Both the position numbers and the translations under genes were made by a program. The notes under the pieces are model-generated. The model did no database searches. It was not told the DNA's origin and saw nothing but the letters and a program-made list of their open reading frames with translations. Of a stretch of 64,000 bases of DNA, positions 2,428-61,703 are shown one piece after another. Each line of letters begins with the position of its first letter. Positions within the stretch are counted from its first letter, which is position 1. The stretch spans positions 1-64,000 of the forward strand of contig DUBO01000042.1 of assembly GCA_012960245.1 (NCBI GenBank). The letters run 5' to 3'. The DNA comes from Candidatus Binatota bacterium. GTDB taxonomy: Bacteria; Desulfobacterota; Binatia; UBA1149.

Positions 2428-4917
2428 GTGAACAGGACCTGGACTCTATGCGCGGCCCTCCTGCTGGTCGCCGGTGCTGCCGGCGCGCAACCCCTGGGCA
2501 AATCTTCGCAGGCCTGCGTCAACGCCATGAACAAGGGCGCCGCCAAGGTTTCGTCGGCCCAGGCAAAAGATAACAGCGGTTGTATTAAGCAGGCCGCGCG
2601 CCTGGAGCCTGCCGGAACGGGCGCCGAGGCTTGCCTCGTGGCCGACCAGCGGGGCAAGATCGCGCGTGCACAGGCCAAGACCCTGGCGGGCGAGACCCGC
2701 AGCTGCGACGTCACACCCAGCTTTGCCTACAGTTCAGGCCAGCTGGTCAACGCGGCCGCCGCGCGTGAAACGATGGCGCTGATACACGACGTGTACGGCC
2801 AGGACCTGGACGCGGCCGTCGTGGGCAAGGACGCGGACCGCAACGGGGCCACCTGCCAGTTGAGCGCCGCCAAGGGATCGGCCAAGTTGCTGGCGGCTGT
2901 TTCTCGCGAGTTCGTTGATACCAAGAAGAAAGGTCTGCGCGATGAGATTTTTGCGGACGCGGCCTCGCTGCAGCAGGCCTGCTTTGACGCGATCAACAAT
3001 GACCAACGCGGCAAGATCGCCCGCGCCGAGCAGAAGCTCGCCTCGCTGCTTGAAAAAAAGTGCGTGGCCCGTGGGGTCGACCTGGCGGCGGTCCTGGCTG
3101 GACAGTGCGCCGGCGAAGCCTCTGCCGGCTCTTCGGCGGCGGCTGACTGCGTCGAGGCGAGGGTACGTTGCCGCGCTTGCCGCCTGTTCAACGACGCCGA
3201 CGCTCTTGAGCAGGACTGCGACCTGTTCGACAACAGCGCAGCCGACAAAAGCTGCCCCGCCTGTGGCGACGGCGTGGTCGATCCCGGCGAAGAATGCGAG
3301 CGCAATCCGGACGGGGAGTGGGGCGTGCCTGAGTTTACCCTTACTATCCCTGCGCCGCCCCTGGGGCAGGGTGCATACCTGGTCGACATCCAGGCATCGT
3401 ATCCAGCCGTCGACTGGAGCACGCTCGACCGCCTTTACCTCGAAGGGGGTGAATACAAGTTTCTTCGTATAGGGAACCTCCCGGTGCGTTCGGCCGACCG
3501 ACCGTTGATCATCACCAACGTCAACGGGCGGGTCCGCGTGGGTGGCCAGGGACACTATTACCTGCTCTCTCTCAGCGGCGGGTCCAACTGGGTCTTGACG
3601 GGCAAGTACGACCCGGTATCCCTGACAGGGGATGCCGCGTTCCCTGGACACAGGGAAAACAACTACGCCAATACCCGTGGAACCTACGGAATCCTCGTCG
3701 ACGACGATTTTTATTTGTTCGGATCTGGGTTCTCAGGGGTCTCAGTAGGGAGCCAGGTACCGGTCGGCATCGTGAATCCGCCGACCAGTGACTACGAGCT
3801 TTCGTTTATCGAGATCCGCGAAGTGGGCTTTGCCGGCATGACCCTCAAGACTGACGACGGTACAGTACCGATGAACAACGTCTACGTTCACGACAACTAT
3901 ATCCACGACACCGGGAGCGAAGGGCTGTACATCGGCAGCACCCAGACGGCTCCGCAACATTCCTTCAACAACCTGCACATCGAAAACAACCGGATTCTGC
4001 GCACCGGGACCGAGGCCCTGCAGGTCGGGCAGCTTGGCGATGGCTGCAAGATCAATAACAACGTGTTCGCGCTCGCGGCCATTGACTGGAAGGACTCCTT
4101 CCAGGCCTTTCAGGACAGCACCAGCCAGATGGATGTGCGCTACGGCCAGAGCTCCATACACGACAACGTGTTCATCGGCGCGGCGAACACGCTGATCGGC
4201 TTCTTCGGTCAGGAAAGTGGAGACGTGCACGCACCCGGTGACGGCATGACGATCCACGACAATTTCTACAGCTCGTTTCGTTTCCTTGGGGCCTTCATGG
4301 GAGGCGACGCCGACGGGGTATCCGCGTACCAGGTCGAGCGAAACGTATTCCGGCAGTTCGACTTCCAACGCGACGAGATCTACGCGGGCAGCGTGCACCC
4401 GGGCCATCTGATCCGCGTGCACGCGACACAAACCAACCCGATCACGCTGCTAGACAACGTTTTTGACGAGCCCAGCCTCGAACTGGTCAACGGCCTGGGT
4501 GGAGCGCTCAACGGCACGGTGGGAAACATTACGGCCAGCGGCAACAGCCGTGGGACCGTCGACCCAGTCACGTTCAACGACTTTATGGGCTTGCCAGCCG
4601 ACGTTGACTACTTGCTGATCGAGCGTTGGAGCGCGACCTCGAGCAGGGCAGGAGGAGTGCCCACGATCTACAACACGGGTGACTACGTCATGCACGAGGG
4701 GAACTTCTATTTGTGTGTCGAAGCAGGCACCCACTCGGGCAAGGAGCCGACGACCAATCCGACCACGTGGCAGCTGTTGCCGTTACCGGGCGACGATGTT
4801 CGGTTGGCCCCCGGCTCGGCTCATACGGGCCTCGGATTGCTCGACACCGTGCCAGTGGGCAAGAAACACTTGCGCGCCGGGAGCAGTGGCAAGGAGTTTT
4901 TTCCGGCTTTTCGATAA
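2428..4917 (+). CDS. Secreted right-handed beta-helix protein with N-terminal Cys-rich module
   Basis: I chose GTG 2428 because it aligns codon for codon with the GTG start of the next gene. An in-frame ATG at 2380 would add 16 uncharged-poor residues before the signal peptide. The product has 829 residues. Residues 1-20 form a signal peptide ending AGA. Residues 24-276 are the shared Cys-rich module, followed by a single degenerate Myxo-type motif (CGDGVVDPGEEC). Residues about 455-720 show parallel beta-helix rungs with recurring N-N and H-D-N turns (VHDNYIHDTGSEG, IENNRIL). Residues about 744-782 (GDYVMHEGNFYLC ... W) resemble a chitin-type CBM5/12. Beta-helix folds of this kind are common in polysaccharide lyases and related enzymes. 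Catalytic residues cannot be assigned. A role in binding or cutting an extracellular polysaccharide is inferred. Confidence 0.75.
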   Translation: MNRTWTLCAALLLVAGAAGAQPLGKSSQACVNAMNKGAAKVSSAQAKDNSGCIKQAARLEPAGTGAEACLVADQRGKIARAQAKTLAGETRSCDVTPSFAYSSGQLVNAAAARETMALIHDVYGQDLDAAVVGKDADRNGATCQLSAAKGSAKLLAAVSREFVDTKKKGLRDEIFADAASLQQACFDAINNDQRGKIARAEQKLASLLEKKCVARGVDLAAVLAGQCAGEASAGSSAAADCVEARVRCRACRLFNDADALEQDCDLFDNSAADKSCPACGDGVVDPGEECERNPDGEWGVPEFTLTIPAPPLGQGAYLVDIQASYPAVDWSTLDRLYLEGGEYKFLRIGNLPVRSADRPLIITNVNGRVRVGGQGHYYLLSLSGGSNWVLTGKYDPVSLTGDAAFPGHRENNYANTRGTYGILVDDDFYLFGSGFSGVSVGSQVPVGIVNPPTSDYELSFIEIREVGFAGMTLKTDDGTVPMNNVYVHDNYIHDTGSEGLYIGSTQTAPQHSFNNLHIENNRILRTGTEALQVGQLGDGCKINNNVFALAAIDWKDSFQAFQDSTSQMDVRYGQSSIHDNVFIGAANTLIGFFGQESGDVHAPGDGMTIHDNFYSSFRFLGAFMGGDADGVSAYQVERNVFRQFDFQRDEIYAGSVHPGHLIRVHATQTNPITLLDNVFDEPSLELVNGLGGALNGTVGNITASGNSRGTVDPVTFNDFMGLPADVDYLLIERWSATSSRAGGVPTIYNTGDYVMHEGNFYLCVEAGTHSGKEPTTNPTTWQLLPLPGDDVRLAPGSAHTGLGLLDTVPVGKKHLRAGSSGKEFFPAFR
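2497..3255 (+). repeat. Cys-rich module, copy 2
   Basis: This segment encodes three Cys-bracketed units, each Cys - linker - GK or AK [VI]xxA[QRE]xK - linker - Cys. A final CRxC ... DCDxFDN ... SC segment closes it. It aligns without gaps to 5069-5827 in the next gene; I count about 25 amino-acid differences over roughly 280 codons by eye. Confidence 0.8.
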
Positions 4918-4963
4918 ACGCACGGTGTACTCCCTCCCCGGACGAGCGATGGTAAAAACCGGG

Positions 4964-4999
4964 CTTCCAGTAGACCACGGGGCGTGACACCGTGGGCGG
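4964..4999 (+). promoter_or_regulatory. Duplicated 36-bp leader, copy 2
   Basis: Second copy of the leader at 2392-2427, same length with five substitutions. An in-frame TGA at 4985 lies 15 bases before the GTG. GTG 5000 is therefore the first possible start in this frame, which also fixes the start of the preceding paralogue. Confidence 0.55.
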
Positions 5000-7900
5000 G
5001 TGACCAGAACCTGGACTCTCTGCGTGGCCCTTCTGCTGGTGGCTGGCGTCGCCGGCGCGCAACCCCTGGACAAACCTTCGCAGGCCTGCGTCAACGCCAT
5101 GAACAAGGGCGCGGCCAAGGTCTCGTCGGCCCAGGCAAAAGAGAACACCGGTTGTATTAAGCAGGCCTCGCGGCAGGAGCCTGCCGGCACGGGTGCCGAG
5201 GCTTGTCTCGTGGCCGACCAGCGCGGCAAGATCGCAAGAGCCCACGCCAAGACCCTGGCGGGCGAGACCCGTAGCTGCGACGTTACACCCAGCTTTGCCT
5301 ACAGTTCAGGCCAGCTGGTCAACGAGGCCGCCGCGCGTGAGACGACCGCGCTGGTACACGACGTTTACGGCCAGGACCTGGACGCTGCCGTGGTGGGCAA
5401 AGACGGGGATCGCAACGGGGCCGGCTGCCAGTTGAGCGGCGCCAAGGGCTCGGCAAAGTTGCTGTCGGCCGTTTTGCGGGAGTTCGTTGATACCAAGAAA
5501 AAAGGCCTGCGCGATGAGAGTTTTGCTGACGCGGGCTCGCTGCAGCAGGCCTGCTTCGACGCGATCAACAATGACCAACGCGGCAAGATCGCCCGCGCCG
5601 AGCAGAAGCTTGCCTCGCTGTTTGAGAAGAAGTGCGTAGCCCGTGGGGTCGACCTGGCTGCGGTCCTGGCAGGACAGTGCGCCGGCGAAGCCTCTGCCGG
5701 CTCTTCGGCGGCGGCTGACTGCGTCGAGGCGAGGGTGCGTTGCCGCGCTTGCCGCCTGTTCAACGATGCCGATGTTCTTGAGCAGGACTGCGACCTGTTC
5801 GACAACGGCGCGGCCGACAACAGCTGTCCTGCCTGTGGCAACGGCGTGGTGGAGGCCGGCGAAGAATGCGACGACGGCGTCGAGACTGCCACCTGCTACG
5901 CTGACTGCACGGCGACCGCCTGCCCCGACGGCACTTGCGGCCTTGGCGAGGATTGCGGCAACTGCGCGACCGACTGCGGTTCGTGTTGTGGCAACGGCAG
6001 CTGCGACAGCGGGCTGGGCGAAGACTACGTGAGTTGCCCGTCGGAATGCGATGCCCCGGGTAACTGCGACGTTGCTACCCCCTGGCAGGACATAGCACCC
6101 AGCCTGCTGGGCATAACCGACCTGTTGCCGTCGCTGCCCGACACGGCGCTGTCGGTTAGCTGGCCCGACCCGCTTCCGACTTTTCTCTCCGACACGCTTG
6201 CGCCCGTTGATCCACCGGTGGGTTGGACGCCCGATGATTCCACCTGCGACGTGTCGGTAAGCTGGGACGTCGATCGCGTCGAGGCGGGCCCCATCAAGGA
6301 CTACGCCGGCGATCCTCACTGCCGTGTCACTCTCACCGACCACCCCACCAACGGCAACGCTCTTTTCTTCGCTAATCGCTGGCCCACGGGCAGCATACAC
6401 ATACCCATTTCGGGCGATCCGACCTGGGCGCAGTTTCGCTTTCCGCTACCGCCCGCGCACCGGGCGGTGCGCCTCAACTACAGGATCGCCTGGGCGCGCC
6501 TGTTCGGCAGCCAGCCCGATCCATGCCACGCCGACGACACCGACGAGCTGGGCAACTGCATTCCCAAGTACAAGGAGGCCGCCGAGGATTGGAGCGAGAA
6601 TGTTCCACCCGGCCTGTTCCTGTTGTGGGGCAAGGCGGGCAACTGCCAGGGCTATGTGATTACCGGGCCCCACGATCCGGCGGCGGAAGTTTCTTACTCG
6701 GGAGCCCAAACTTACAGCGTAGACGTGCCTGAATCCTTGCAGACAGTAGACGAACTGGTGGTGGCGGCGTTCATATACCGCCAGTACCCCGGCGGGTGTG
6801 ACGGGGCCAACTGCCTGTCGGGACGCTTCGTGTACAACAGCATGGCAATACAGGATCTCACGCTGGACACCGAGGAAATCTTTAATCCTCCCTCGCTACC
6901 GGCCCTCGACCATCCGAGGTTGTTCGGGGCGAACGAGCAGTGGCTGGCCGGGCAGGAAGTATTTAACAACCTGCCCTGTTACTACGCGCCGGTTTACGAG
7001 GAAGGCGCGGGCTGGGGCTCGGTAACAAACATCCGTAATATGTGGGACGTCTATACCCGGGGCGGCAAGGTCTGCAACGGCGAGGACCCCGTGCTCATCG
7101 AAGACCATCCCGACGCGGCTCCTTACCTGGACGGTACGGCTGCGGGTAACTGGAACGAGGACCGAGCTATCCGCGTGCTGCACCTGCTGCGCCGCGTGCG
7201 CGCCTGCCACGAGCAGGGTGGCGGTGGCTGCCAGTTTTCGCTGGCTGATATCGACGCGCTGGTGGCACAGTTCATAGCCGTGGAGATCGCCCGTTTCGGT
7301 GACTGGACCTGGGAGAACCAGAGCCTGGTGTTCGACCTGGGGACGCTACCGCCCATGCGCTACTGGTCTATATTTGCCGATACCCTGTGGGATGACCTGT
7401 CGCAGGCCGACCACGACATCATAGCCACCGAGATGGGCAGCCGTATCGATGTCTTTCTGCAGCACGCCGAAAACCACCACTGGGCGTTGTACAACGGCAA
7501 CAACTGGACGCCGGTGTTGTCGCTGGCCGCCATGTACTGGGCGATTACCTATTACCACGAGGACCCCCGTGCACCGCAGGTGGCGCTGACCGCGCTCGGG
7601 GTTTTGTGGCTGCACCGTGATTTTTACCTGGCCGACGGCGCTTACAAAGAAGGGTTGATGATGTACACGCACGTGTCCTTCGACAACCTGCGGCAGATCA
7701 ACATGCTGTCGCGCGCTACTTTCGGCGAGTCCATCGACAGCGTACGCTGGGACCGTATGCCCGCAGTGAGTCAGTGGGCGCTGGAGTTCCTGGCACCCGA
7801 CGGCCTGACGGTGGACTACGGTGACTCCTGGGCCAAGCGCGGTTGGTCGACCTTCATGCCCCTGTACATGGCCATGGCGTCGGAGCTGATCGGGCAGGGG

Positions 7901-51062: not shown

Positions 51063-51710
51063 GTGGCTTTGCTGACAGCCAGGACCGTGGCCACGCTGCT
51101 CGTGCTGCTGGCTTCCTGCACTGTCCATGAATACGGTGCGCCCGCCCGTGAGGCGCCCTCGGCCGATGCCCCGGTTGTCCTGTTTTTTGGCGACAGCATC
51201 ACTGCTGGCACCGGCGTGGGCCAGGCCGCTGCGTTTCCGGCGGTGGTGCAGGAAAGGATAAACAGCGAAGGTTTGGACTACCGCTGCGTCAACGCAGGTG
51301 TCTCCGGCATAACCACCGGCGGGTCCCTGTTGCGCCTGCCTGAGTTCCTGCGGGAGCCGCCAGCGGTGGTAGTTGTTGAGCTGGGCGCCAACGATGTGTT
51401 CCGACGGGTGCCGTCGGAGGCCTGGACGAAGAATCTTGTCGAGATCGTTGAGCGTTTCCAGGCGGCGGGCTCCGGGGTTCTGATAGCCGGGACCCTGTTT
51501 CCACCGTTTGAGCTGCGTTCGGGGGGAGCGGCAGAAGCCGTGTACCGAGACGTAGCCCGTCTCAGCTCGGCTCCGCTGCTGGTGGACCTGATGGCTGGGG
51601 TAGCTGGAGATCCGGCTCTCAACGTGGCCGACGGCGTGCACCCCAACCTCGAAGGGCATCGTCGCCTGGCAGAGACCCTGTGGCCCTACCTGCTGCCCTT
51701 GCTCGATTGA
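51063..51710 (+). CDS. GDSL/SGNH hydrolase lipoprotein (TesA-like)
   Basis: The product has 215 residues from GTG. The signal peptide ends LLASC with lipobox Cys19. The nucleophile block is FFGDSITAG (Ser45), GAND supplies the oxyanion Asn, and DGVHPN supplies Asp190 and His193. It is likely an esterase, thioesterase or lysophospholipase in the periplasm. The last 25 bp overlap the convergent MMPL gene. Confidence 0.88.
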   Translation: MALLTARTVATLLVLLASCTVHEYGAPAREAPSADAPVVLFFGDSITAGTGVGQAAAFPAVVQERINSEGLDYRCVNAGVSGITTGGSLLRLPEFLREPPAVVVVELGANDVFRRVPSEAWTKNLVEIVERFQAAGSGVLIAGTLFPPFELRSGGAAEAVYRDVARLSSAPLLVDLMAGVAGDPALNVADGVHPNLEGHRRLAETLWPYLLPLLD

Positions 51711-54067
51711 CCAGTTCCACCCGAGCCCGGAATACGCACCAGCCGTGAAAGGGTGGCCGGGAACAGAAGTATAGACACCAGGTAACATACCGCGACCGTG
51801 ATGGCGGTGAGCGCGCCCAGCTTGATCTGCGGGTAGAGATCGGCGGCGAGCAAAACCAGGAAGCCTGCCAGGAGCACCACCGCGTTGAAGAACAACGCGC
51901 GCCCGGCCGTAACCGCTGTAATCACGGCCGCTTGTTCGTGCGCGACACCAGCGCGTCTCTCTCCCAGGTAGCGGTAGAGGTAGTGGATGGCGAAGTCGAT
52001 GCCTATTCCAAGCGTCATGGCGCCGAGCATTACTATGGGTATATCGACCGGTACCCCGGCAAAGCCCATGCTCCCGTAGGCAGCCAGCAGGGCAAAAGTA
52101 ACGGGCATCACGGCAAGCACTCCCAGCGGCAACCGTCCGAACACCGCCCAGCAGATCAAGGTCAGCAGGGGCAGACATATGGCCAGCGCTCGGATCTGGT
52201 CGTTTATGACGTGCAATTCCATTCGCGAACTCGTCATGGCGTCACCCGAGAATACTATTTTTGCCGACGGCAGCCCCGGACCGTTGAACAGTTCCTCGGA
52301 GAGGTCCCTTGCCTGTTCGAGAGTAGCTTTTGCCCAGGCGGTGCCGGTGCGGTTGATGAACATCTGCATGCGGGCGTGGCGGTAGTCGTAGTCCACCATG
52401 TCGTCAAAATCGCCGGGATCACCCGACATGGAGTAGAGCAGCAGGTACTGGGCCACCAGCTCACGCGAGCCGGGTATCTCGGCCTTGTGGGGGTCATCGC
52501 CGTGCATTACGCGGTTCATGCGGGCTACCAGTTCGGCCAGTGACAAGGAGCCACCTACCTGCGGCAGCTCGTCCATTCGCCGTTGCATTTCAAGCATGGC
52601 GGAGAGTAGCGCGGGATCCTTGATGGCGTCGACCGAGCCGCCGTCTATTACAACGTCGAGTATGGTGCTTCCCGAGAAGTGGGCGTTGACCGCGTCGTCG
52701 GCGTCCCTGATTTCGTGGCCCGGCGGAAACTGGGCTATGCGCGAACTGTCCACGGTCAACCTGCTGGCTCCAAAAATTCCAGCCACTACCAGTGCTGCGA
52801 AAACGGCCACTACCCAGTTTCTTCTCCGCGACGCCGCGCGCGCTACGCCAGCGAACAGGCGCACGCTGCTGTTGTTGTCGTCAAACAGGCTGCGGCGGGT
52901 GCCCAAACGCGGTGCCTTCAGCGGCAACAGGGCAAACAGCGCAGGAATGAGCAGGAGCGTAAGCACGAAGGCCGCCGTCACCCCCACCGCGGCGAGCACA
53001 CCGAAGTCGCGTAGCGGCGCCATCGATGACATCGAGGTCGACAGAAAACCGACCGCCGTAGTCACCGAGGTAAGCAGCACGGGAGGACCCATGTCCATCA
53101 TCGTTACGCGCACGATCTCGTCGCGCCCTGCGTCGGGTGACTCGACCTGCGCGTCGTAGTAGCGACTGAGCAGGTGTATCGAATCGGCAACGGCTATGGG
53201 TACGAGAACGACCAGCAGTATGGAACTGATGGTGTACATCGGGTGTCCCCACCAACCCAGGAATCCGAAGGTCCAGATTTCGGTCGCGGCTATAACGGCG
53301 AGGCAGATACCAACCGAGCGAAGCGTGCGAAATGACAAGAGTACCAGCAGGCTGATCACCGCAAGTACGAAGGGCATCAGGCGACGGCCCTCGGCGGGGA
53401 TGGCGATGTAGAAGATTCCTTCGATCACCGGGCGGCCGGCGAGAAAAAACTGTTCGGGATGGCCCGCCTCGCTGAGCCCGTCGACGTAGGCCTTGAGCTT
53501 CAGGTAGGAGCCGGCCTGGTCGGCGTGACCCTGCTCGGACTCGCGCACCATTATCAGGGTGCCCTTATCGTCGAGAGCCGCGAGGGTGCCTTCGAACATA
53601 CCGTTGTCTCGTATGGCTTGCCTCAGCCGCCGGGCTCCCTCGGGATCATCGGGAGCCAGCTCCATGAAGGGCTCCACTTCCATGCCCTCCTCGGTGCCGC
53701 GCACATTGTTTACGGTGGACAGCGACCTCAGATCCGAGTTGACGGCCGTTTCAAATTCGGGCTGTTCCTGCAGCCAGTCGGTGATGCGGCTCACCAGCGC
53801 CAGTGTCTCGGGGTTGAAGGCACCGTCGGGGTGGTCGGGCCTGAGCACGGCGATCATGTGCAGGCTTACATCGCCGAAAACTTCTTCGATGTACGCCAGG
53901 TTGTCGCGCGCTATGTCCTTGTCGGGGAGGAACTGCCTCGCGTCGCTGTCTATGTAGACTCGTGGAAGGCCGGCGGCCATGAAGGCGGTGGCGGCCAGCG
54001 CGATGAGCAGTGCCACCAGTGGCCTGCGGATGACCGCATCGATGTAGCGTTGCCAGGCGCGTTTCAC
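51686..54067 (-). CDS. MMPL/RND-family transporter, subunit 1
   Basis: The product has 793 residues and a two-fold RND layout: one helix, a large periplasmic domain, five to six helices, then a repeat. VPIAVADSIHLLSRYYDAQVE and GIGIDFAIHYLYRYLGERR mark the two halves, each with the Asp typical of proton-coupled MMPL/HpnN-like exporters. Members move lipids such as hopanoids or mycolates. It overlaps its upstream paralogue by 4 bp (ATGA). The two share only moderate similarity, so they may form a hetero-oligomer or handle different steps. Confidence 0.9.
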   Translation of the reverse strand: MKRAWQRYIDAVIRRPLVALLIALAATAFMAAGLPRVYIDSDARQFLPDKDIARDNLAYIEEVFGDVSLHMIAVLRPDHPDGAFNPETLALVSRITDWLQEQPEFETAVNSDLRSLSTVNNVRGTEEGMEVEPFMELAPDDPEGARRLRQAIRDNGMFEGTLAALDDKGTLIMVRESEQGHADQAGSYLKLKAYVDGLSEAGHPEQFFLAGRPVIEGIFYIAIPAEGRRLMPFVLAVISLLVLLSFRTLRSVGICLAVIAATEIWTFGFLGWWGHPMYTISSILLVVLVPIAVADSIHLLSRYYDAQVESPDAGRDEIVRVTMMDMGPPVLLTSVTTAVGFLSTSMSSMAPLRDFGVLAAVGVTAAFVLTLLLIPALFALLPLKAPRLGTRRSLFDDNNSSVRLFAGVARAASRRRNWVVAVFAALVVAGIFGASRLTVDSSRIAQFPPGHEIRDADDAVNAHFSGSTILDVVIDGGSVDAIKDPALLSAMLEMQRRMDELPQVGGSLSLAELVARMNRVMHGDDPHKAEIPGSRELVAQYLLLYSMSGDPGDFDDMVDYDYRHARMQMFINRTGTAWAKATLEQARDLSEELFNGPGLPSAKIVFSGDAMTSSRMELHVINDQIRALAICLPLLTLICWAVFGRLPLGVLAVMPVTFALLAAYGSMGFAGVPVDIPIVMLGAMTLGIGIDFAIHYLYRYLGERRAGVAHEQAAVITAVTAGRALFFNAVVLLAGFLVLLAADLYPQIKLGALTAITVAVCYLVSILLFPATLSRLVRIPGSGGTGQSSKGSR

Positions 54068-56415
54068 GAGGGTCCCTTCCCGGTGCTTGATTGCTCTGCT
54101 GCAAAAAGTCCCAGCGCTGCCGGGAAGAGATACAGGGTGTAGACGTAGCAGATCACCATGGTCGTGGTCACCAACAAGCCGAGTTTTACCTGCGGGTAGA
54201 AGCGCGCTCCCAGCAGGACGAGGAAGCCTCCGACCAGTACCACTGCGTTAAAAAACAGCGCGCGACCGGCGGTGGCGGCGGTGAGAACGCTGGCGCCTTC
54301 GTGCTCCATGCCGCGGTTTCGCAACTCGCGGTAGCGATGCAGGTAGTGCACCGAGAAATCGACGCCGATCCCCAGTGTGATCCCGCTCAGCACGGCAATG
54401 CCAAAGTCGGTGGGGATGCCGGCAATGCCGAGCGCGCCGTAAGTGAGCAGGACGGCGAAGGCCACCGGTGCCACCAGCAGCAGCGCCATCACAAGGCTCC
54501 TGAACACGAGGAAGCCAATCGCGACGAGCACCGGCAGGCAGATAGACGCAGTCATGAACTGGCCCGAGATAATGGCTTCTTCCAGCGTGGTGGTAAACTG
54601 TGCTCCGCCGGCTGCCACGGCACTGGCGTTGGGCAGGTCAGCAAAGTGAAGCGACACCAGTTCGTCACTGCGCTCGAGCACCTGCCGGGCCGCTGTAGTG
54701 CCCGGGTCGCGCAAGAAGGTACGCAGGCGGGCGTAGCGGTAGTCGTAGTCTACCAGGTCTTCGAAGTCTCCGGGGCTGCCCGACATCGAGTACAAGAGCA
54801 GGTACTGGGCCACTAGCTCTCTGTCGGCCGGCATCTCCCGGCTACCGTTGGGCAGGCCGTTCATGACGGCGTGCATTCGCGCCACGAGGTCGGCCAGCGA
54901 AAAGCTGTCGCCCACCAGCTCCATTTCTTCGAGCCCGTCCTGTACCGAGGCCATGGCCTTGAGCAGGGCCGGATCCTTGAGGCCCCCTTCGCTACCGCTG
55001 TCGATCAGTATGTCGGTGGTAGTTCCACCGGCAAAGTAGAGGTCGGCTACGTTGTTGGCGACTCTTACCCTGTGGCCGGGTGGAAACTGGCTCACCATGG
55101 AGCTGTCGGCCGTGACCAGGCGGATACCGAACACGCCCACGCTCGACAGCAGGGCGAACAGGGCCAGCGTGACCCAGGGGTTTCGATTCACGAGCACGGC
55201 CGATCCGGTGAGCTGTCGCACCAGCCACGACCCGCGGTCGAGCAAGCTGTTTCTCGAGCGGCCGCGGCCGGGCTGCAGCGGCAACACCATCAGCACGGCA
55301 GGCATCAGTACCAAGGTGAGCAACAGCGCTACCATTATTCCACCGGCCGCCGCCAGGCCGAACTCAAAAATCGGTATCAGCCTCGAGACCGACATGGCGC
55401 TGAAGCCAACCGCCGTGGTGATCGATGTCAGCAGTACCGGGGAAGCCATTTCCTGCATGGTCAGGCGGACGACGGCCTCTCGGTCGAGCGACGGGTTTTC
55501 GACCTGGGCATCGTAGTAGCGGCTGAGAAGGTGGATGGAATCGGCCACCGCTATGGGCACCAGGATCACCGGCAGGATGGTCGTGATCGGGTAGATGGGG
55601 TGGTCCAATGCCGCCAGCGCGCCCATGGTCCACAGCTCGGTTCCCAGTATGACTGCAAACGGCAGTAGCACCCCGCGTACGCTGCGAAAGGTCAGCCACA
55701 GCATTATGCCGATCAGGCCTATCACCGCGGGCAGCATGTTGCGCGTGTCGCTGCGCATGTTTTCATCGAAGATGCCTTCAATGATAGGTCTCCCCGCGAG
55801 GTGGAAGGTCTCGGGGCGGCCATCGGCAGACAACTTGTTGACGTAGGCTTCCAGTTTCCTGGAGGCGCCCTGTCGGTTAAGGTTCCCCGCCGCTGATCGC
55901 CTGACCATGATGGTGGCACCCTTGCCATCGGCAGACACCAACGACCCGCTGTAAACCGGGTCGGCGTCGAGCGCCCCGCGAAGTGCCAGCGACTGATCCC
56001 GGTTGGCGGGGATCTCGTCCATGAAGGGGAGCACGAGCAATCCGCTGTCACTGCCGACGATGTTGTTTACGGTGGCCAGCGACCTGAGGTCCGAGGGCAA
56101 GGAGGTTTCGAACTCGTCCTGCTGCTCGAGCCACTCGCCCATTTCGCGGATGAGAGCCAGCGAGGATGGATTGTAGATGCCGTCGCGGTGGTCACGGCGA
56201 AGGACCAGGATCATGAACAGGTCCTGCTCACCGAAGATATCTTCCATGCGGTCAAGCGCTTGGCCGACCGGGTCGTCCTTGCCCAGGTAGGAACGCGCGT
56301 CGCTGTCCGTTCTGATCGATGGCAACTGCCAGGCGAACCAGCCGGTAAGCAGCAAGGTGGCCAGCAGGATTGGCAGGGGGCGCGAGAGGACAAGGTTTGT
56401 GAAGCGGTGATACAG
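54064..56415 (-). CDS. MMPL/RND-family transporter, subunit 2 (start unresolved)
   Basis: This is a second MMPL protein of about 783 residues, with VPIAVADSIHLLSRYYDAQVEN and GIGVDFSVHYLHRYRELR marking the halves. The conserved N-terminus is [25 protein letters not shown]. No ATG, GTG or TTG occurs at the place matched by its paralogue's ATG. The nearest in-frame option is CTG 56415; TTG 56490 and GTG 56508 lie inside the upstream gene. A CTG start, a coupled non-standard start or a sequence error are all possible. Confidence 0.8.
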   Translation of the reverse strand: MYHRFTNLVLSRPLPILLATLLLTGWFAWQLPSIRTDSDARSYLGKDDPVGQALDRMEDIFGEQDLFMILVLRRDHRDGIYNPSSLALIREMGEWLEQQDEFETSLPSDLRSLATVNNIVGSDSGLLVLPFMDEIPANRDQSLALRGALDADPVYSGSLVSADGKGATIMVRRSAAGNLNRQGASRKLEAYVNKLSADGRPETFHLAGRPIIEGIFDENMRSDTRNMLPAVIGLIGIMLWLTFRSVRGVLLPFAVILGTELWTMGALAALDHPIYPITTILPVILVPIAVADSIHLLSRYYDAQVENPSLDREAVVRLTMQEMASPVLLTSITTAVGFSAMSVSRLIPIFEFGLAAAGGIMVALLLTLVLMPAVLMVLPLQPGRGRSRNSLLDRGSWLVRQLTGSAVLVNRNPWVTLALFALLSSVGVFGIRLVTADSSMVSQFPPGHRVRVANNVADLYFAGGTTTDILIDSGSEGGLKDPALLKAMASVQDGLEEMELVGDSFSLADLVARMHAVMNGLPNGSREMPADRELVAQYLLLYSMSGSPGDFEDLVDYDYRYARLRTFLRDPGTTAARQVLERSDELVSLHFADLPNASAVAAGGAQFTTTLEEAIISGQFMTASICLPVLVAIGFLVFRSLVMALLLVAPVAFAVLLTYGALGIAGIPTDFGIAVLSGITLGIGVDFSVHYLHRYRELRNRGMEHEGASVLTAATAGRALFFNAVVLVGGFLVLLGARFYPQVKLGLLVTTTMVICYVYTLYLFPAALGLFAAEQSSTGKGPS

Positions 56416-56443
56416 TGTTTTTTCTCTAGCTGAAAACGGTTTC

Positions 56444-58378
56444 TCAGAAACTGCGCCGTACGGTGAACAGCAGCATGTCGTTGCGATCAAAGCGGCCAAA
56501 GGTTCCACCAGTGCGCGCCATCGGGTTGTAGGCATGGCCGAAGAATGCGTCGTACTCGGCCGAGAACTTCCAGTTGTCCATGGGTTGGTAGTCGACCTTG
56601 GCCTGCAGCCAGGCGTCGTTGCCCCTGACATTGACCATCGTAAACAGCCACGGCTTGATCGTTTCGGCCATCCAGGCTCCCGAAAGGCGTAGCCCCACGT
56701 AGTCGGTCTCTCGCGGGTGGAGCAGCGCGGAGTGAGGGTCGATGATCTGTTCGTGCACCAGCTGCAGGCTTGCGTCGGCCTGTTCCCACCAGTCGAAGTC
56801 AGGCTTGGTGTCGAGCGCCAGCAGCACGCGGGCCACGTCCTGGCGGGCGCGGAAACCGCGGCCGGCGGTTTCGGGCGCGGCCAGCGGTGAGACCGAGAAC
56901 ATCCTGTTGTTTTCGAAGGCCGCGTCCAGCCGGTAGAGGAGGTTTCCTCTCGGGTGCACCACGTTGAAGGTCAGCAGGTCAAACTGTTCGTGGCGCGGGG
57001 TCGCCGTGCCCGAGAGAGGGTCCACTGCCAGCGAAGGACGGTCGTCCCAGCTCCTGAGGTAGCCGATCGACCAGTCGGCCGCCAGCGGGTGACGGCTGTA
57101 GCGCAGGCCAAACTCAGAGTTCGCGAAGCTCGCGGCTGGCCTCTCGGCTGGCAACAGCGCCAGCCCTCCCAGCGCGTCGGGGTCCACGAAGGACCAGGGC
57201 GAGCCAAGGTCGGGGAAGTCGGGGCTGGTGAAACGCCCGAGCCACAGCAGCTGCAGGTCGCTGCCATCATCGAAGTAGTAGTCCAGGGTTACTCCGTCCA
57301 CGCCCAGCCGTATCTCGTCGAACTCGGGGACGATGAAGTTGGTGAGGTCAAAGGGCGAAACCTGGTCCGACACTATCGCGCCGTCGGCTTCTCCCCAGGC
57401 GATCTGCTGGCGACCCAGGCGAAGGTCTACCTTGTCAAAGCGCAGCCTGAGGTAAGCCTCGCGCAGGCGCGATTTTACCGTCGATTCGTCCTGGAAGGAG
57501 GCGTCGTCACGGTAGACGTCAGCCGCCAGCCGCAGCATGTGGCCGCCTCCGGTGTAACCTTCGAGTTCCATGTGCAGCGTTTGTCGATGGAACAACAGCT
57601 CGTCGGGGTCGTCGAGGCTGGGGGCCACTGATTCCTGCAAGTAGCCGAGGGTGCTGAAGTCCAGGTCGATGGGGGAAATTTTCTTTTTTGTCGCGGGTGC
57701 TGGCGTCGGGGTGGCCCGGGAGGGGGCGGCCTCGATGGTCGTGGCTGCAGGCAGCTGTTTGCCGGGAGCGGCGGGTGTCGCGCTCGTGGAGGCCTGCTCG
57801 AGCATGGCCTCCATGTCTGCAACGACCGCCGCACGCTGTCGCACCTGCCGGGCGGTAGCGGGGTCCTCGGCGATGGCTGTTACCGCGAGAGGCGGTGAGG
57901 TGACAGCTTTTTCCCGTATCACCACCGCGCCGTCGAGCAGGTCTACCACCAATCGGTCGGGCCTGTCGCCGTCGGGGGGCAGGGTAAAAACAGTCGGGCG
58001 CACTGGGGCCCTGAGATCAAAAACGATTCGAGCCTTGTCGGTTCGATTCTGCGAAGCCCTCATCCTGAGCACGCGGGTGTCGTTGGATACCAAGGCAGTC
58101 TCGATGCCACCGCCGTTTGTTATCCCGTATAGATCTACCCAGACCCTCGAGGGTCGGCCCAGCGAAGGGTCGGCGCGCAGTTGCCCCCATTTAAAGGAAA
58201 CCGGGCCGTCAAGGTCTAATACCACCCGGGTTCGAGTCGCACTGGTAGACGATTTTACGCCGGTTACCACCGGGGAGGCGCCGGCGGTTGTCGCGGTCAG
58301 CGGCAGGGCGAGTGCACAGGACGCCACCAGCAACGCGGCGCGGGCCAATAGACCGGCAACTGTGGGTCGCCGTTTCAC
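56444..58378 (-). CDS. AMIN-domain / DUF1302-like outer-membrane barrel fusion
   Basis: The product has 644 residues. After a signal peptide (1-34), residues about 36-150 look like an AMIN domain (TRTRVVLDLDGPVSF, SRVWVDLYG, ARIVFDLRAP, DRLVVDLLDG). AMIN domains bind peptidoglycan or guide periplasmic location. An Ala/Pro/Thr-rich linker (175-235) leads to a barrel-type region (240-644) with YLRLRFDKVDLRLGRQQIAWGEAD, similar to DUF1302, ending in an aromatic-rich RRSF. It lies between a LolA-like gene and two MMPL genes, which suggests the outer-membrane part of an exporter. Confidence 0.75.
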   Translation of the reverse strand: MKRRPTVAGLLARAALLVASCALALPLTATTAGASPVVTGVKSSTSATRTRVVLDLDGPVSFKWGQLRADPSLGRPSRVWVDLYGITNGGGIETALVSNDTRVLRMRASQNRTDKARIVFDLRAPVRPTVFTLPPDGDRPDRLVVDLLDGAVVIREKAVTSPPLAVTAIAEDPATARQVRQRAAVVADMEAMLEQASTSATPAAPGKQLPAATTIEAAPSRATPTPAPATKKKISPIDLDFSTLGYLQESVAPSLDDPDELLFHRQTLHMELEGYTGGGHMLRLAADVYRDDASFQDESTVKSRLREAYLRLRFDKVDLRLGRQQIAWGEADGAIVSDQVSPFDLTNFIVPEFDEIRLGVDGVTLDYYFDDGSDLQLLWLGRFTSPDFPDLGSPWSFVDPDALGGLALLPAERPAASFANSEFGLRYSRHPLAADWSIGYLRSWDDRPSLAVDPLSGTATPRHEQFDLLTFNVVHPRGNLLYRLDAAFENNRMFSVSPLAAPETAGRGFRARQDVARVLLALDTKPDFDWWEQADASLQLVHEQIIDPHSALLHPRETDYVGLRLSGAWMAETIKPWLFTMVNVRGNDAWLQAKVDYQPMDNWKFSAEYDAFFGHAYNPMARTGGTFGRFDRNDMLLFTVRRSF

Positions 58379-59196
58379 TGCCTGAGACTTCTCTGGCTGA
58401 ACAGCGATGGCTTCACCTCGACGTCGAGCTCCAGCGTCGTCATGTCCAGCACGGTATTGTGGCCGGTGATGAGGTTGCTCATGATCATGCGGTGTCCGCG
58501 CGGGCGGGGGTCGCTGTCAGAGGTGGGGTGAATGTCTTCTACCAGCAGTCGCTTCGCCAAGCGCCCCTTTTTGTCCCAGTACTCGCCCTTGCGGCTGAGC
58601 ATGTCGCTCTTGGCTATCCAGCTGACGGTCTTTGAGTAGCTGGTCTCACCGGCTTCCTTTTCATTGGCGGGCACCGCCTCCACTACCCAGCAGGGCTCGC
58701 CGGCAAAGGTCTCCGGCTCTGCGAAGCTGTAGTTCCAGTTTACGATGTCGATGTTTTCCATGTCCTCGTAGGTGAAGTCCGAGCCCATGAAGTAATCTTT
58801 CTTGTTCGACGAAAGGATGCGCTTTATTTTCTTGAGAGCGGGCAGGTACAGCCAGGTGTCGTCGTCGCGTTCGTCGTTGTAGTCGTAGCTCAGCAGGGTG
58901 GTGTTGCGCACGTCCGAGGGCTTGAGGAATCGCGAAAAACGGTGTTCCTCGACGTCACTCAGCTCCTTTGACCAGCCCTCGATAGTGCGCACGCGAGACT
59001 GACCGCGCTTGTTGGTAAGCGTCATCGTCATGACCTGGTGCTCGGTTTTTGAGCGCCTGGCCTCGTCCGAAGCCTTGGCTGTTTGTTTTGCCGTCATCTC
59101 GGCCGCTTCGGCTGGTGTCGCAGCAAAAATTGAGGCCGCTAACGTCGACGCTGCAAGTACTCCCAGCGTTCTTGTTGACATCCGTGTCTTCTTCAT
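58375..59196 (-). CDS. Outer-membrane lipoprotein-sorting (LolA-like) protein
   Basis: The product has 273 residues. A signal peptide ending in AEA precedes the LolA-like fold. DDDTWLYLPALKKIKRI and SFAEPETFAGEPCWVVEAVP are typical of the LolA_like/DUF1329-related group found beside MMPL transporters. It probably carries a lipid across the periplasm. It overlaps both neighbours by 4 bp (TetR stop and AMIN-barrel start), which indicates one tightly coupled operon. Confidence 0.87.
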   Translation of the reverse strand: MKKTRMSTRTLGVLAASTLAASIFAATPAEAAEMTAKQTAKASDEARRSKTEHQVMTMTLTNKRGQSRVRTIEGWSKELSDVEEHRFSRFLKPSDVRNTTLLSYDYNDERDDDTWLYLPALKKIKRILSSNKKDYFMGSDFTYEDMENIDIVNWNYSFAEPETFAGEPCWVVEAVPANEKEAGETSYSKTVSWIAKSDMLSRKGEYWDKKGRLAKRLLVEDIHPTSDSDPRPRGHRMIMSNLITGHNTVLDMTTLELDVEVKPSLFSQRSLRQ

Positions 59197-59882
59197 CCTG
59201 CTGTCTCCCTGTCTTTGCTGTGTCCTGGTGATTTGCGCGGTGAATTTTCTGCCCTGAGCATGGCGGCGGCGTAGCGCTGGGCATCGGCCAGGACCTGGGC
59301 AGCTGGATTGGCAGCAGGATCTTCGAGGTGGGCAAGGTAAAGGTTGGTGCTTACCGCTTCCAAGGCAGCCGCAGCGCGGGACGCGTCCTGGGGCGCGAAC
59401 AAGCCGTCGCGTATGCCTTCGCTTATGACAGCGGATGTTTCGGCCATGCCCTGCTCAAAGGTCAGTCGGGCTTGTTCCGGAAAACTCGAGACCAGCGACA
59501 TACGCGCTCCCGGATTGACGCTCAAGTGCACGTGGATGGTGTCGGCTTCCTGTTGAAAGAGCGCGAGTTTCTCGACTATCATTTTTTCCATGCGCTCGGC
59601 CGGGTTGCCGCCCGAGTCGCGGGCCTGCCTGAGGCGTTCGTAGAAATACTGCGTGCGGTTGATGATCAGGTCGCGGTACAGGGTTTCCTTGTTTTCGAAG
59701 AGATTGTAGAAGCCGCCCACCGAGACGTCGGCCTCACCGGCTATCGAGGCGATCGATGTTTCGGCGAAACCTTTGCTCGCAAACAGGGCTGTAGCCGCCT
59801 CCAGTACCCGCTGACGGGCATTCTCGCGGCGTTTCTGTACACGGCTCACAGCCGCACTTGCACTTATTGAACTGGTCTTCAT
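59193..59882 (-). CDS. TetR/AcrR-family transcriptional regulator
   Basis: ATG 59882 gives 229 residues. The in-frame TTG 59900 lies inside the predicted -10, so it is rejected. The N-terminal TetR helix-turn-helix is RVLEAATALFASKGFAETSIASIAGEADVSVGGFYNLFENKE. The ligand domain follows. As first gene of the operon it likely represses its own promoter and responds to a substrate of the MMPL exporter, by analogy with AcrR. Confidence 0.9.
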   Translation of the reverse strand: MKTSSISASAAVSRVQKRRENARQRVLEAATALFASKGFAETSIASIAGEADVSVGGFYNLFENKETLYRDLIINRTQYFYERLRQARDSGGNPAERMEKMIVEKLALFQQEADTIHVHLSVNPGARMSLVSSFPEQARLTFEQGMAETSAVISEGIRDGLFAPQDASRAAAALEAVSTNLYLAHLEDPAANPAAQVLADAQRYAAAMLRAENSPRKSPGHSKDRETAG

Positions 59883-59894
59883 TTGTGAACGGCA

Positions 59895-59923
59895 ATTCAA
59901 TCCCTTTGGTAATGCCCTGTCAA
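59895..59923 (-). promoter_or_regulatory. Predicted promoter of the TetR-led operon
   Basis: On the minus strand TTGACA (59923-59918) and TTGAAT (59900-59895, 4 of 6 bases) are spaced 17 nt apart. Transcription should begin near 59888, about 6 nt before ATG 59882, so the transcript has nearly no leader. Confidence 0.6.
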
Positions 59924-60071: not shown

Positions 60072-61703
60072 TCAGACATAGATACCACCGGAGAACTCGC
60101 GGTCCTGGCGCATCATGACATTCACGCAAGCCGGCTTACCACTGGCGTAGGCCCGCTCAAGGGCCGGTCGGATCTGGTCGGGTTCGGTCACAAGCTCGCC
60201 GTGGCCGCCCAGGGCCTCGACGACCTTGTCGTAGCGGGTGGCCGCCAGCTCGGTGGCCACCAGCCGATCCTCGCCGAACAGGCCGGCCTGGGGCCTGAGC
60301 ATCTGCCCCCAGGCCTGGTCGTTGCCGATGATGCCGACGATGGGGAGTCCAAACCGCACGGCCGTGTCGAACTCGAAACCGTTCAGCCCGAAACTTCCGT
60401 CGCCGTAGACGATGAGCACGCGCTTGTCGGGATGGGCTAGCTGCGCGGCCAGCGCAAACGGCATGCCCACGCCCAGCGTGCCCAGCGGGCCCGGGTCCAT
60501 CCACGCGCCGTTTTTGGGCACCTTTATGACCTTGGCCGCCTGCGCCACTATGTCGCCGCCGTCGCCGATCACTATGGTGTCGTCGTCCACGAAGTCGGCT
60601 ATCTCGCGGCACAAGCGTTGCGGGTCGATCGGCACCTCGTCGGAGTTGAGCCGAGCGCGCATGGTTTCTTCGGCCTCGTCCTCTTTCGCGCGCCAGGTCT
60701 CCACGACGCCTGACCAGTCCATGCTGACATTGTCTTCCTGCATGACCTCGAGCATGGTCTGCAGGGTTAGCCCGAGGTTGCCCACCAGGCCAATGTCGGC
60801 CCGGCGGTTCTGGCCGATCTGCACGGCGTCGAGATCGAGTTGTATGATTTTTGCCGTGGCCGGGATCGAGGCGCCGAAGCGCATGCGGAAGTCCAGCAGC
60901 GAACCGGCCAGTACCACGCAGTCGGTCTGCTCGAGGTAGTCGCGACGCGTGCGGTTGAAGAACCAGGGAGAGTCGTGGTCGACCTGCCCGCGGCCCATGC
61001 CGTTGCAGAAGGCGGGCATCTTAACGGCGTCGAGAAAGCGGCCCAGCGACTCGCGGCCGTTGGACCACTTGACGCCAGTGCCGACCATTATCATGGGCTG
61101 CTTTGAAGCCGCCAGCATCGTTACGGCCTCGCGCACCGACTCTCGGGCCGGCCTGACCTGCGGCGTGGGCAGCGGCGCGGGGCAGTAGGCGGTGTCGAGG
61201 TCTACCGGTCCACCCAGTACGTCCATGGGGATTTCAATGTAAGCCGGGCCGGGGTTGCCCGACAACGCGTGGCGTATGGCTTCTTCCACGTACTCGCCCA
61301 GGCGGTCAGTGGCGTAGCATGCCTCGGCCCACTTGCTTATAGGTCGCATGACCGAGATGTGATCCATTTCCTGCAGCGAGCCCTTGCGCAGGTTGGCCAG
61401 CGGTCCCTGGCCGCCAAAAACAAGGATGGGCGAGTTGGCCCGCCAGGCGTTGGCCAGCCCGGTAACGCCGTCGGTGGCGCCGGGCCCCGCGGTGAGTATG
61501 GCCACGCCCACCTTGCCGGGGTTCAGTCGGGCCCAGGCGTCGGCCGCGTGGACGGCGGCCTGTTCGTGTCTCACGTCGACAACTTTTATCCCCTCGTCGA
61601 GGCAACCATCGTAGATCGCCATCACGTGTCCGCCCGAAAGCGTGAAGACCACTTCGACCCCCGCCTGTTTCAGCGCCTTCGCTACCAGTTTGCCACCGTG
61701 CAT
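60072..61703 (-). CDS. Thiamine-diphosphate-dependent enzyme (2-hydroxyacyl-CoA lyase / acetolactate synthase-like)
   Basis: The product has 543 residues. The cofactor-activating Glu47 is in DVRHEQAAVHAADAWAR. The thiamine-diphosphate motif is GDGSFG (434-439) with Asn461 and FGLPIVGIIGNDQ. RKGSLQEMD and the C-terminal SGGIYV recall oxalyl-CoA decarboxylase and 2-hydroxyacyl-CoA lyase, rather than anabolic acetolactate synthase with its usual small subunit. It may cleave 2-hydroxyacyl-CoA in lipid degradation. It diverges from the P450 gene. Confidence 0.8.
   Translation of the reverse strand: MHGGKLVAKALKQAGVEVVFTLSGGHVMAIYDGCLDEGIKVVDVRHEQAAVHAADAWARLNPGKVGVAILTAGPGATDGVTGLANAWRANSPILVFGGQGPLANLRKGSLQEMDHISVMRPISKWAEACYATDRLGEYVEEAIRHALSGNPGPAYIEIPMDVLGGPVDLDTAYCPAPLPTPQVRPARESVREAVTMLAASKQPMIMVGTGVKWSNGRESLGRFLDAVKMPAFCNGMGRGQVDHDSPWFFNRTRRDYLEQTDCVVLAGSLLDFRMRFGASIPATAKIIQLDLDAVQIGQNRRADIGLVGNLGLTLQTMLEVMQEDNVSMDWSGVVETWRAKEDEAEETMRARLNSDEVPIDPQRLCREIADFVDDDTIVIGDGGDIVAQAAKVIKVPKNGAWMDPGPLGTLGVGMPFALAAQLAHPDKRVLIVYGDGSFGLNGFEFDTAVRFGLPIVGIIGNDQAWGQMLRPQAGLFGEDRLVATELAATRYDKVVEALGGHGELVTEPDQIRPALERAYASGKPACVNVMMRQDREFSGGIYV

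Follow-up and report, generated by a model that had tools for sequence, protein, structure and literature searches.

Described systems related to the cluster

Little is known of how apolar lipids and hydrocarbons cross the Gram-negative periplasm by routes other than Lpt, Lol and Mla. Here we analyse a cluster of five genes in a 64,000-nucleotide stretch of contig DUBO01000042.1 (assembly GCA_012960245.1; the whole stretch is called the window) from a Candidatus Binatota bacterium. The genes encode a TetR-family regulator, a LolA-like periplasmic carrier, a DUF1302-type outer-membrane barrel with an N-terminal AMIN domain, and two MMPL transporters. The genome comprises 2.8 Mb in 60 contigs and is 96% complete; its lineage, UBA1149, has been treated as an order of Binatota/UBP10 (PMC8262859).

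Four families of the window are also found together in Bacteroidota. An operon of Porphyromonas gingivalis, listed as TetR, MMPL, LolA-like and hypothetical protein, responds to iron or hemin limitation with strong induction (PMC10434189, PMC10470040). This operon (PG1178-1181) and one of Prevotella nigrescens (L162) have the four families in common with the window, although for PG1178, annotated as hypothetical, DUF1302 membership is an assumption. The Bacteroidota operons differ from the window in gene order, in having two ABC transporter genes and a single MMPL gene, in lacking AMIN, and in being regulated by iron or hemin. The P. nigrescens order is TetR-ABC-ABC-MMPL-LolA_like-DUF1302, and its LolA-like protein is 34% identical to that of the window.

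A characterised system built like the cluster is AmeABCD of Castellaniella defragrans, a monoterpene exporter whose deletion lowers monoterpene tolerance, with a slight effect on Nile Red (PMC6394551). Like the window, it combines a DUF1302 outer-membrane protein, a LolA-superfamily periplasmic protein and an RND pump, in its case of HAE3 type, and its pairing of a DUF1302 barrel with a DUF1329-type periplasmic protein is seen in the window with both domains over cut-off. It differs in having AmeC (YCF48/COG4447), a 451-aa DUF1329 protein (AmeB) and one pump. No AmeC-like gene was found within the five-gene cluster, and in a tree of MMPL proteins four Ame-type loci, used as a proxy since AmeD itself is not in the tree, form a separate clade (100) with the window's proteins outside it. 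Membership of AmeABCD was rejected on these two grounds.

Two further sets bear on the comparison. During growth on the alkane n-C28, a protein with MMPL and LolA-like parts was up 42-fold and a neighbouring porin-like protein was detected only on n-C28 (PMC6304351). Thalassolituus TOL_3187/TOL_3188 and an Acinetobacter locus (L163) resemble the window in having an MMPL with a LolA-like domain and a porin-like neighbour, but there MMPL and LolA-like are fused into one protein. In the Acinetobacter locus (4081-7731) a single 1216-aa open reading frame (ORF) joins SRPBCC (Polyketide_cyc2), MMPL and LolA_like, the barrel gene overlaps its end, and TetR was not found in the stretch. In Pseudomonas putida, DUF1302 and DUF1329 proteins are required for growth on Tween 20 and are predicted to form a complex (PMC10866462). 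This set (PP_0765/PP_0766 with PP_2018/PP_2019) has DUF1302 and DUF1329 with an unlinked pump, as in the MMPL-less loci described below; it differs from the window in that the pump is encoded elsewhere, the periplasmic protein is DUF1329 rather than the short PF17131, and the phenotype is growth on Tween 20.

The preliminary description of the window knew of no described system with this set. That claim fails, as the four families form the Prevotella operon, the P. gingivalis operon is similar and AmeABCD is a characterised look-alike. Uniqueness of the gene set was likewise rejected, since relatives in other phyla carry the four families. TetR, MMPL, LolA-like and DUF1302 together are a widespread but poorly understood kind of operon, of which the window holds a variant.

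Wall-binding domains on the barrel

The AMIN domain family binds peptidoglycan, and in secretins the peptidoglycan anchor is AMIN (PilQ), a LysM-like domain (TsaP) or SPOR (LspD) (PMC9239104). The same three kinds of domain occur on DUF1302-type barrels. As judged by profile matches, barrels encoded beside LolA-like genes bear N-terminal domains of three peptidoglycan-binding families (AMIN, SPOR and FimV-type LysM), and this is new: searches of mainly open-access literature, partly aimed at this point, gave no report of wall-binding domains fused to a DUF1302-type barrel.

Lineages were chosen by a long open frame at the barrel N-terminus, not at random, and most sampled barrels have no extension. 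Counting the window's genus as one, 18 lineages have long extensions: 12 with a wall-binding domain over cut-off, three with one under it and three with none. AMIN is fused in the window's genus, G158, G542 and G660; SPOR in G749, G344, G238, G386, G648, G338 and G653; and FimV_core, the FimV-type LysM domain, in G355. Matches under cut-off were AMIN in G580 (19.8 versus 20.5) and G197 (16.7), and FimV_core in G309 (29.7 versus 43.45); the long N-termini of G062, G588 and G414 gave no wall-binding domain match. Ten of these barrels are from the class to which G208 belongs (seven with SPOR, one with AMIN and one with FimV_core over cut-off, and one with FimV_core under it). A LolA-like gene adjoins every barrel with a fused domain over cut-off; a linked MMPL gene is not always there.

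When the states none, AMIN, SPOR and LysM were mapped on a tree of 57 barrels, at least eight changes were required (AMIN four, SPOR two, LysM two), gain and loss being indistinguishable and the sub-threshold G580, G197 and G309 being coded as carriers. With the AMIN of AmiC from its own genus the window's AMIN shares 45-47% identity, against 26% with the AMINs fused to the barrels of G158 and G542. Its greater closeness to AmiC argues for a separate fusion event, and from these comparisons the fusions look independent and recurrent. The preliminary description had made an AMIN-bearing barrel part of the system. The domain itself is over cut-off; within the order it is confined to the window's genus, and the barrels of all five other genera that have the LolA-barrel pair gave no AMIN match in Pfam.

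The five genes and their products

The five ORFs first described are real; they lie on the minus strand between 51686 and 59900, all with domains over Pfam cut-offs. The TetR-family regulator (59193..59882; TetR_N, 1.3e-11) is followed by the 273-aa carrier (58375..59196), the 644-aa barrel (56444..58378, last residue Phe), MMPL1 (54064..56415) and MMPL2 (51686..54067). Coordinates confirm 4-bp overlaps at three of the four junctions: TetR/LolA (59193-59196), LolA/barrel (58375-58378) and MMPL1/MMPL2 (54064-54067). The domain matches also support the earlier statement that each envelope compartment is provided for.

The carrier begins with a signal-like hydrophobic segment and matches LolA_like (PF17131) at 4.1e-52, with 177 bits against a cut-off of 30; its DUF1329 match, also over cut-off, is restricted to residues 74-147. 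It matches the structures 9tp6, 3bk5 and 4z48 at 1.6e-38 to 3.8e-27, and a scan of viral contigs with the carrier gave no match. The barrel, whose fold was assigned from family membership, matches DUF1302 (PF06980) at 2.1e-18 (67.1 bits, cut-off 23.2). Its AMIN domain (PF11741), residues 74-147 at 57938..58159 on the minus strand, scores 1.2e-8 and 35.3 bits against a cut-off of 20.5, and those of two congeners score 34.5 and 36.7.

MMPL1 and MMPL2 are tandem paralogues, 48% identical, that match MMPL (PF03176) at 1.1e-34 and 5.1e-22 (120.4 and 78.7 bits, cut-off 20.5). The top NCBIfam match of both is HAE3 (TIGR00921), at 214.6 and 221.7 bits against a cut-off of 351.9. In RND proton pumps, transmembrane aspartates in TM4 and TM10 act in the proton relay. 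Aspartates were spotted by eye in AVADSIHL and GIG(V/I)DF segments; a motif script, with a pattern that was probably too strict, returned none. A search of the PDB with MMPL2 at 1e-7 gave no match. In the tree both proteins fall within one eight-row clade of the order with open inner branches, and the Bacteroidota MMPL is on a long branch apart from them. The hopanoid transporter HpnN (104 versus a cut-off of 751.85) and the sterol transporter BstA (35.9 versus 1400) share the transporter superfamily with the window's proteins and were rejected as equivalogs, the scores being far under the cut-offs. A PDZ domain is present in a further MMPL protein encoded by this genome (L073 7528-10194).

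Conservation of the cluster and its relatives

The set is not confined to the window: all three members of the genus have it (the window's own genome, G011 with much of MMPL1 missing, and G012), which argues for more than chance, and one relative has a barrel 95% identical to the window's. Among 13 genomes sampled from the order, eight have close relatives of the LolA-like protein and barrel (58-60% and 50-55% identical, respectively, outside the genus), and the remaining five have short, weak DUF1302 matches only. A thiamine pyrophosphate (TPP)-dependent enzyme gene, in the window the upstream neighbour of the cluster (60072..61703, minus strand), adjoins the pair in all eight loci and is steadier than MMPL, which is linked in five (the three genus genomes, G008 and G007). 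TetR is adjacent in four (the genus and G008). G008 has the order TPP-TetR-LolA-barrel-MMPL, that of the window with a single pump. Tandem MMPL genes at the locus were found in the genus only, the G007 contig stopping after the first MMPL. In G012 (L039/L065) an extra, distant MMPL gene lies on the opposite strand between the TPP enzyme and TetR, and its TetR is more diverged.

Within the order the core of the system is thus LolA-like protein, barrel and TPP enzyme, and MMPL is not a constant part. As a unit, the set proposed earlier holds insofar as its parts are conserved together in distant bacteria; it does not hold for the pump, which is absent from three of the eight order loci while the other three genes stay. 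Among solved structures, those nearest to the TPP enzyme are 2-hydroxyacyl-CoA lyases/synthases and benzaldehyde lyase. In Binatota the transported compound may be related to this neighbouring enzyme, which we note as a lead.

Further afield, Photobacterium has the order barrel-LolA-MMPL-TetR. In the class of G208, 185 genomes were sampled and 88 of them matched PF17131 at 1e-30 or better. In the best-scoring 30 loci out of these 88, with flanks of about 1.5 kb, MMPL, LolA and barrel genes were side by side in 23; the rest had MMPL and LolA (four), TetR, LolA and barrel (one), LolA and barrel (one) or LolA alone (one). Loci centred on the barrel had all three genes in 22 of 30 and LolA in 25 of 30. 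Most of the counted loci were themselves represented among the pooled ORFs on which the models behind these counts were iterated. Two loci (L210 and L211) have TetR in front of the trio. A second locus in G749 (L306 521-5501) has LolA-barrel-MMPL, the same order as the window.

A profile of the order's barrels matched those of the phylum pairs with 100% probability, Prevotella with 99.7%, Ame-type loci with 98.7%, Photobacterium with 98.3% and Acinetobacter with 97.2%, compared with at most 1.6% for 15 column-shuffled controls. The match to barrels of the class of G208 was 69% (E 4e-5), and two of those barrels match no Pfam family, so their kinship is drawn partly from gene context.

A proposed route and its alternatives

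We think it about an even chance that the cluster encodes a TetR-controlled exporter for a hydrophobic compound, driven by protons and anchored to the wall, with the compound passing from pump to carrier to barrel. MMPL1 and MMPL2, as RND-type and presumably proton-driven proteins, would pull the compound from the inner membrane and hand it to the LolA-like carrier. The carrier would deliver it to the barrel, from where it would leave into or across the outer membrane. Through its AMIN domain the barrel would be tethered to peptidoglycan, in the way that secretins are by AMIN, SPOR and LysM, and TetR would repress the operon. Carrier and barrel form the most constant pair, which suggests that they are in contact. 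Transfer from pump to carrier is likely given the MMPL-LolA fusion in Acinetobacter, and the SRPBCC (lipid-transport) domain of that fusion points to a hydrophobic cargo. An envelope-spanning role, already suggested in the preliminary description, gains support from this fusion and from the recurrent wall-binding domains; anchoring of the barrel to the wall is in keeping with a stationary exit, less so with a freely moving porin. The outward direction, the lipid cargo and the sensing of a ligand by TetR, as given in the preliminary description, are inferences. The module offers a testable architecture of inner-membrane pump, lipid carrier and wall-tethered exit barrel, with MMPL as the usual yet replaceable energy source.

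Several observations weigh against this proposal. MMPL1 of G011 is missing residues 54-659, its two matching ends being joined (L040/L064 9906-10427), and may be either dispensable or misassembled. G006, G009 and G010 lack an adjacent MMPL gene; a convergent neighbour directly follows the barrel gene, so none is present at these loci, and each genome has 9 to 12 MMPL matches. Elsewhere in the phylum, five loci (L079, L152-L155) have LolA-like and barrel genes with no MMPL within the 3 to 20 kb available, two of them being under 6 kb long. AlphaFold models, made from thin alignments, are poor (mean pLDDT 37.5 for the barrel and 35.4 for the carrier). The P. putida growth phenotypes and the induction on n-C28 suit uptake as much as they do export.

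Uptake is the strongest competitor, though we consider it clearly less probable than export. In such a scheme the barrel would admit alkanes, terpenoids, fatty acids or other hydrophobic substrates, the LolA-like protein would carry them inward, and MMPL would be optional or clear toxic excess. The persistence of LolA, barrel and TPP enzyme at the three order loci without a linked MMPL is in its favour, as are the similarity of that enzyme to 2-hydroxyacyl-CoA lyases in a genome with seven PhyH-family matches and the requirement for DUF1302 and DUF1329 genes on Tween 20. In crude-oil isolates of Pseudomonas aeruginosa, moreover, RND-DUF1302-DUF1329 genes lie beside phytanoyl-CoA dioxygenase genes (PMC7145413). 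The MMPL neighbour found in most loci elsewhere, in both the PF17131-centred and the barrel-centred counts, argues for export instead. RND pumps generally export, and the AmeABCD data favour efflux, slight as the Nile Red effect is.

A pump for envelope or iron/redox stress without a dedicated lipid substrate is unlikely. It would follow the Bacteroidota relatives, since expression of PG1178-1181 and of Prevotella operons like it goes up strongly when iron or hemin is lacking, but no iron-related neighbour was noticed in the window and the Bacteroidota MMPL is distant in the tree. Least probable of all, and by our estimate very improbable, is sorting of outer-membrane lipoproteins by a true LolA variant with the barrel as receptor. 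The names of the Pfam and PDB matches do read lipoprotein sorting; the Pfam model matched is PF17131, however, with no LolA model among the listed matches, and these genes are found in association with MMPL. Of the solved relatives the best, P. gingivalis LolA3 (9TP6), binds LolB very weakly and is without the LolA arginine and the LolB leucine (PMC13103446).

Returning to export, a wider and more speculative version can be put forward, which we hold to be possible but somewhat doubtful. LolA-like/DUF1302 modules would be trans-envelope lipid exporters whose barrel functions best if tethered to peptidoglycan, the probable place being the pole or the division site. This state would have been reached several times through fusion of septal- or pole-type domains (AMIN from AmiC, SPOR, FimV-type LysM), so that lipid is inserted where new outer membrane forms, and in the window's genus the tandem MMPLs would make a heteromeric pump. 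AMIN of AmiC, SPOR and FimV domains localise to the septum or pole, and the recurrent fusions render both this location and the requirement for anchoring testable.

Gene starts and flanking features

The tetR ORF opens at TTG 59900, and the conserved ATG at 59882 is the likelier start. Just upstream is a candidate promoter-like block, TTGACA-N17-TTGAAT (59895..59923, minus strand), conserved in three genomes (the window, L039 and L040). A consensus promoter scan did not list this TTGACA block. Position 59923 is the first base of the conserved TTGACA and not that of a gene.

At the barrel/MMPL1 junction no ATG, GTG or TTG is suitably placed. The codon CTG 56413-56415, the same in all three genus genomes, aligns with the GTG at which G008 and G007 start, and the stretch ahead of it shows a 2-nt indel difference within the genus. 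From this alignment the CTG is the likely start of MMPL1, leaving a 28-bp gap after the barrel gene. At the other end of the cluster, the 3' ends of MMPL2 and a GDSL esterase gene overlap by 25 bp (51686-51710).

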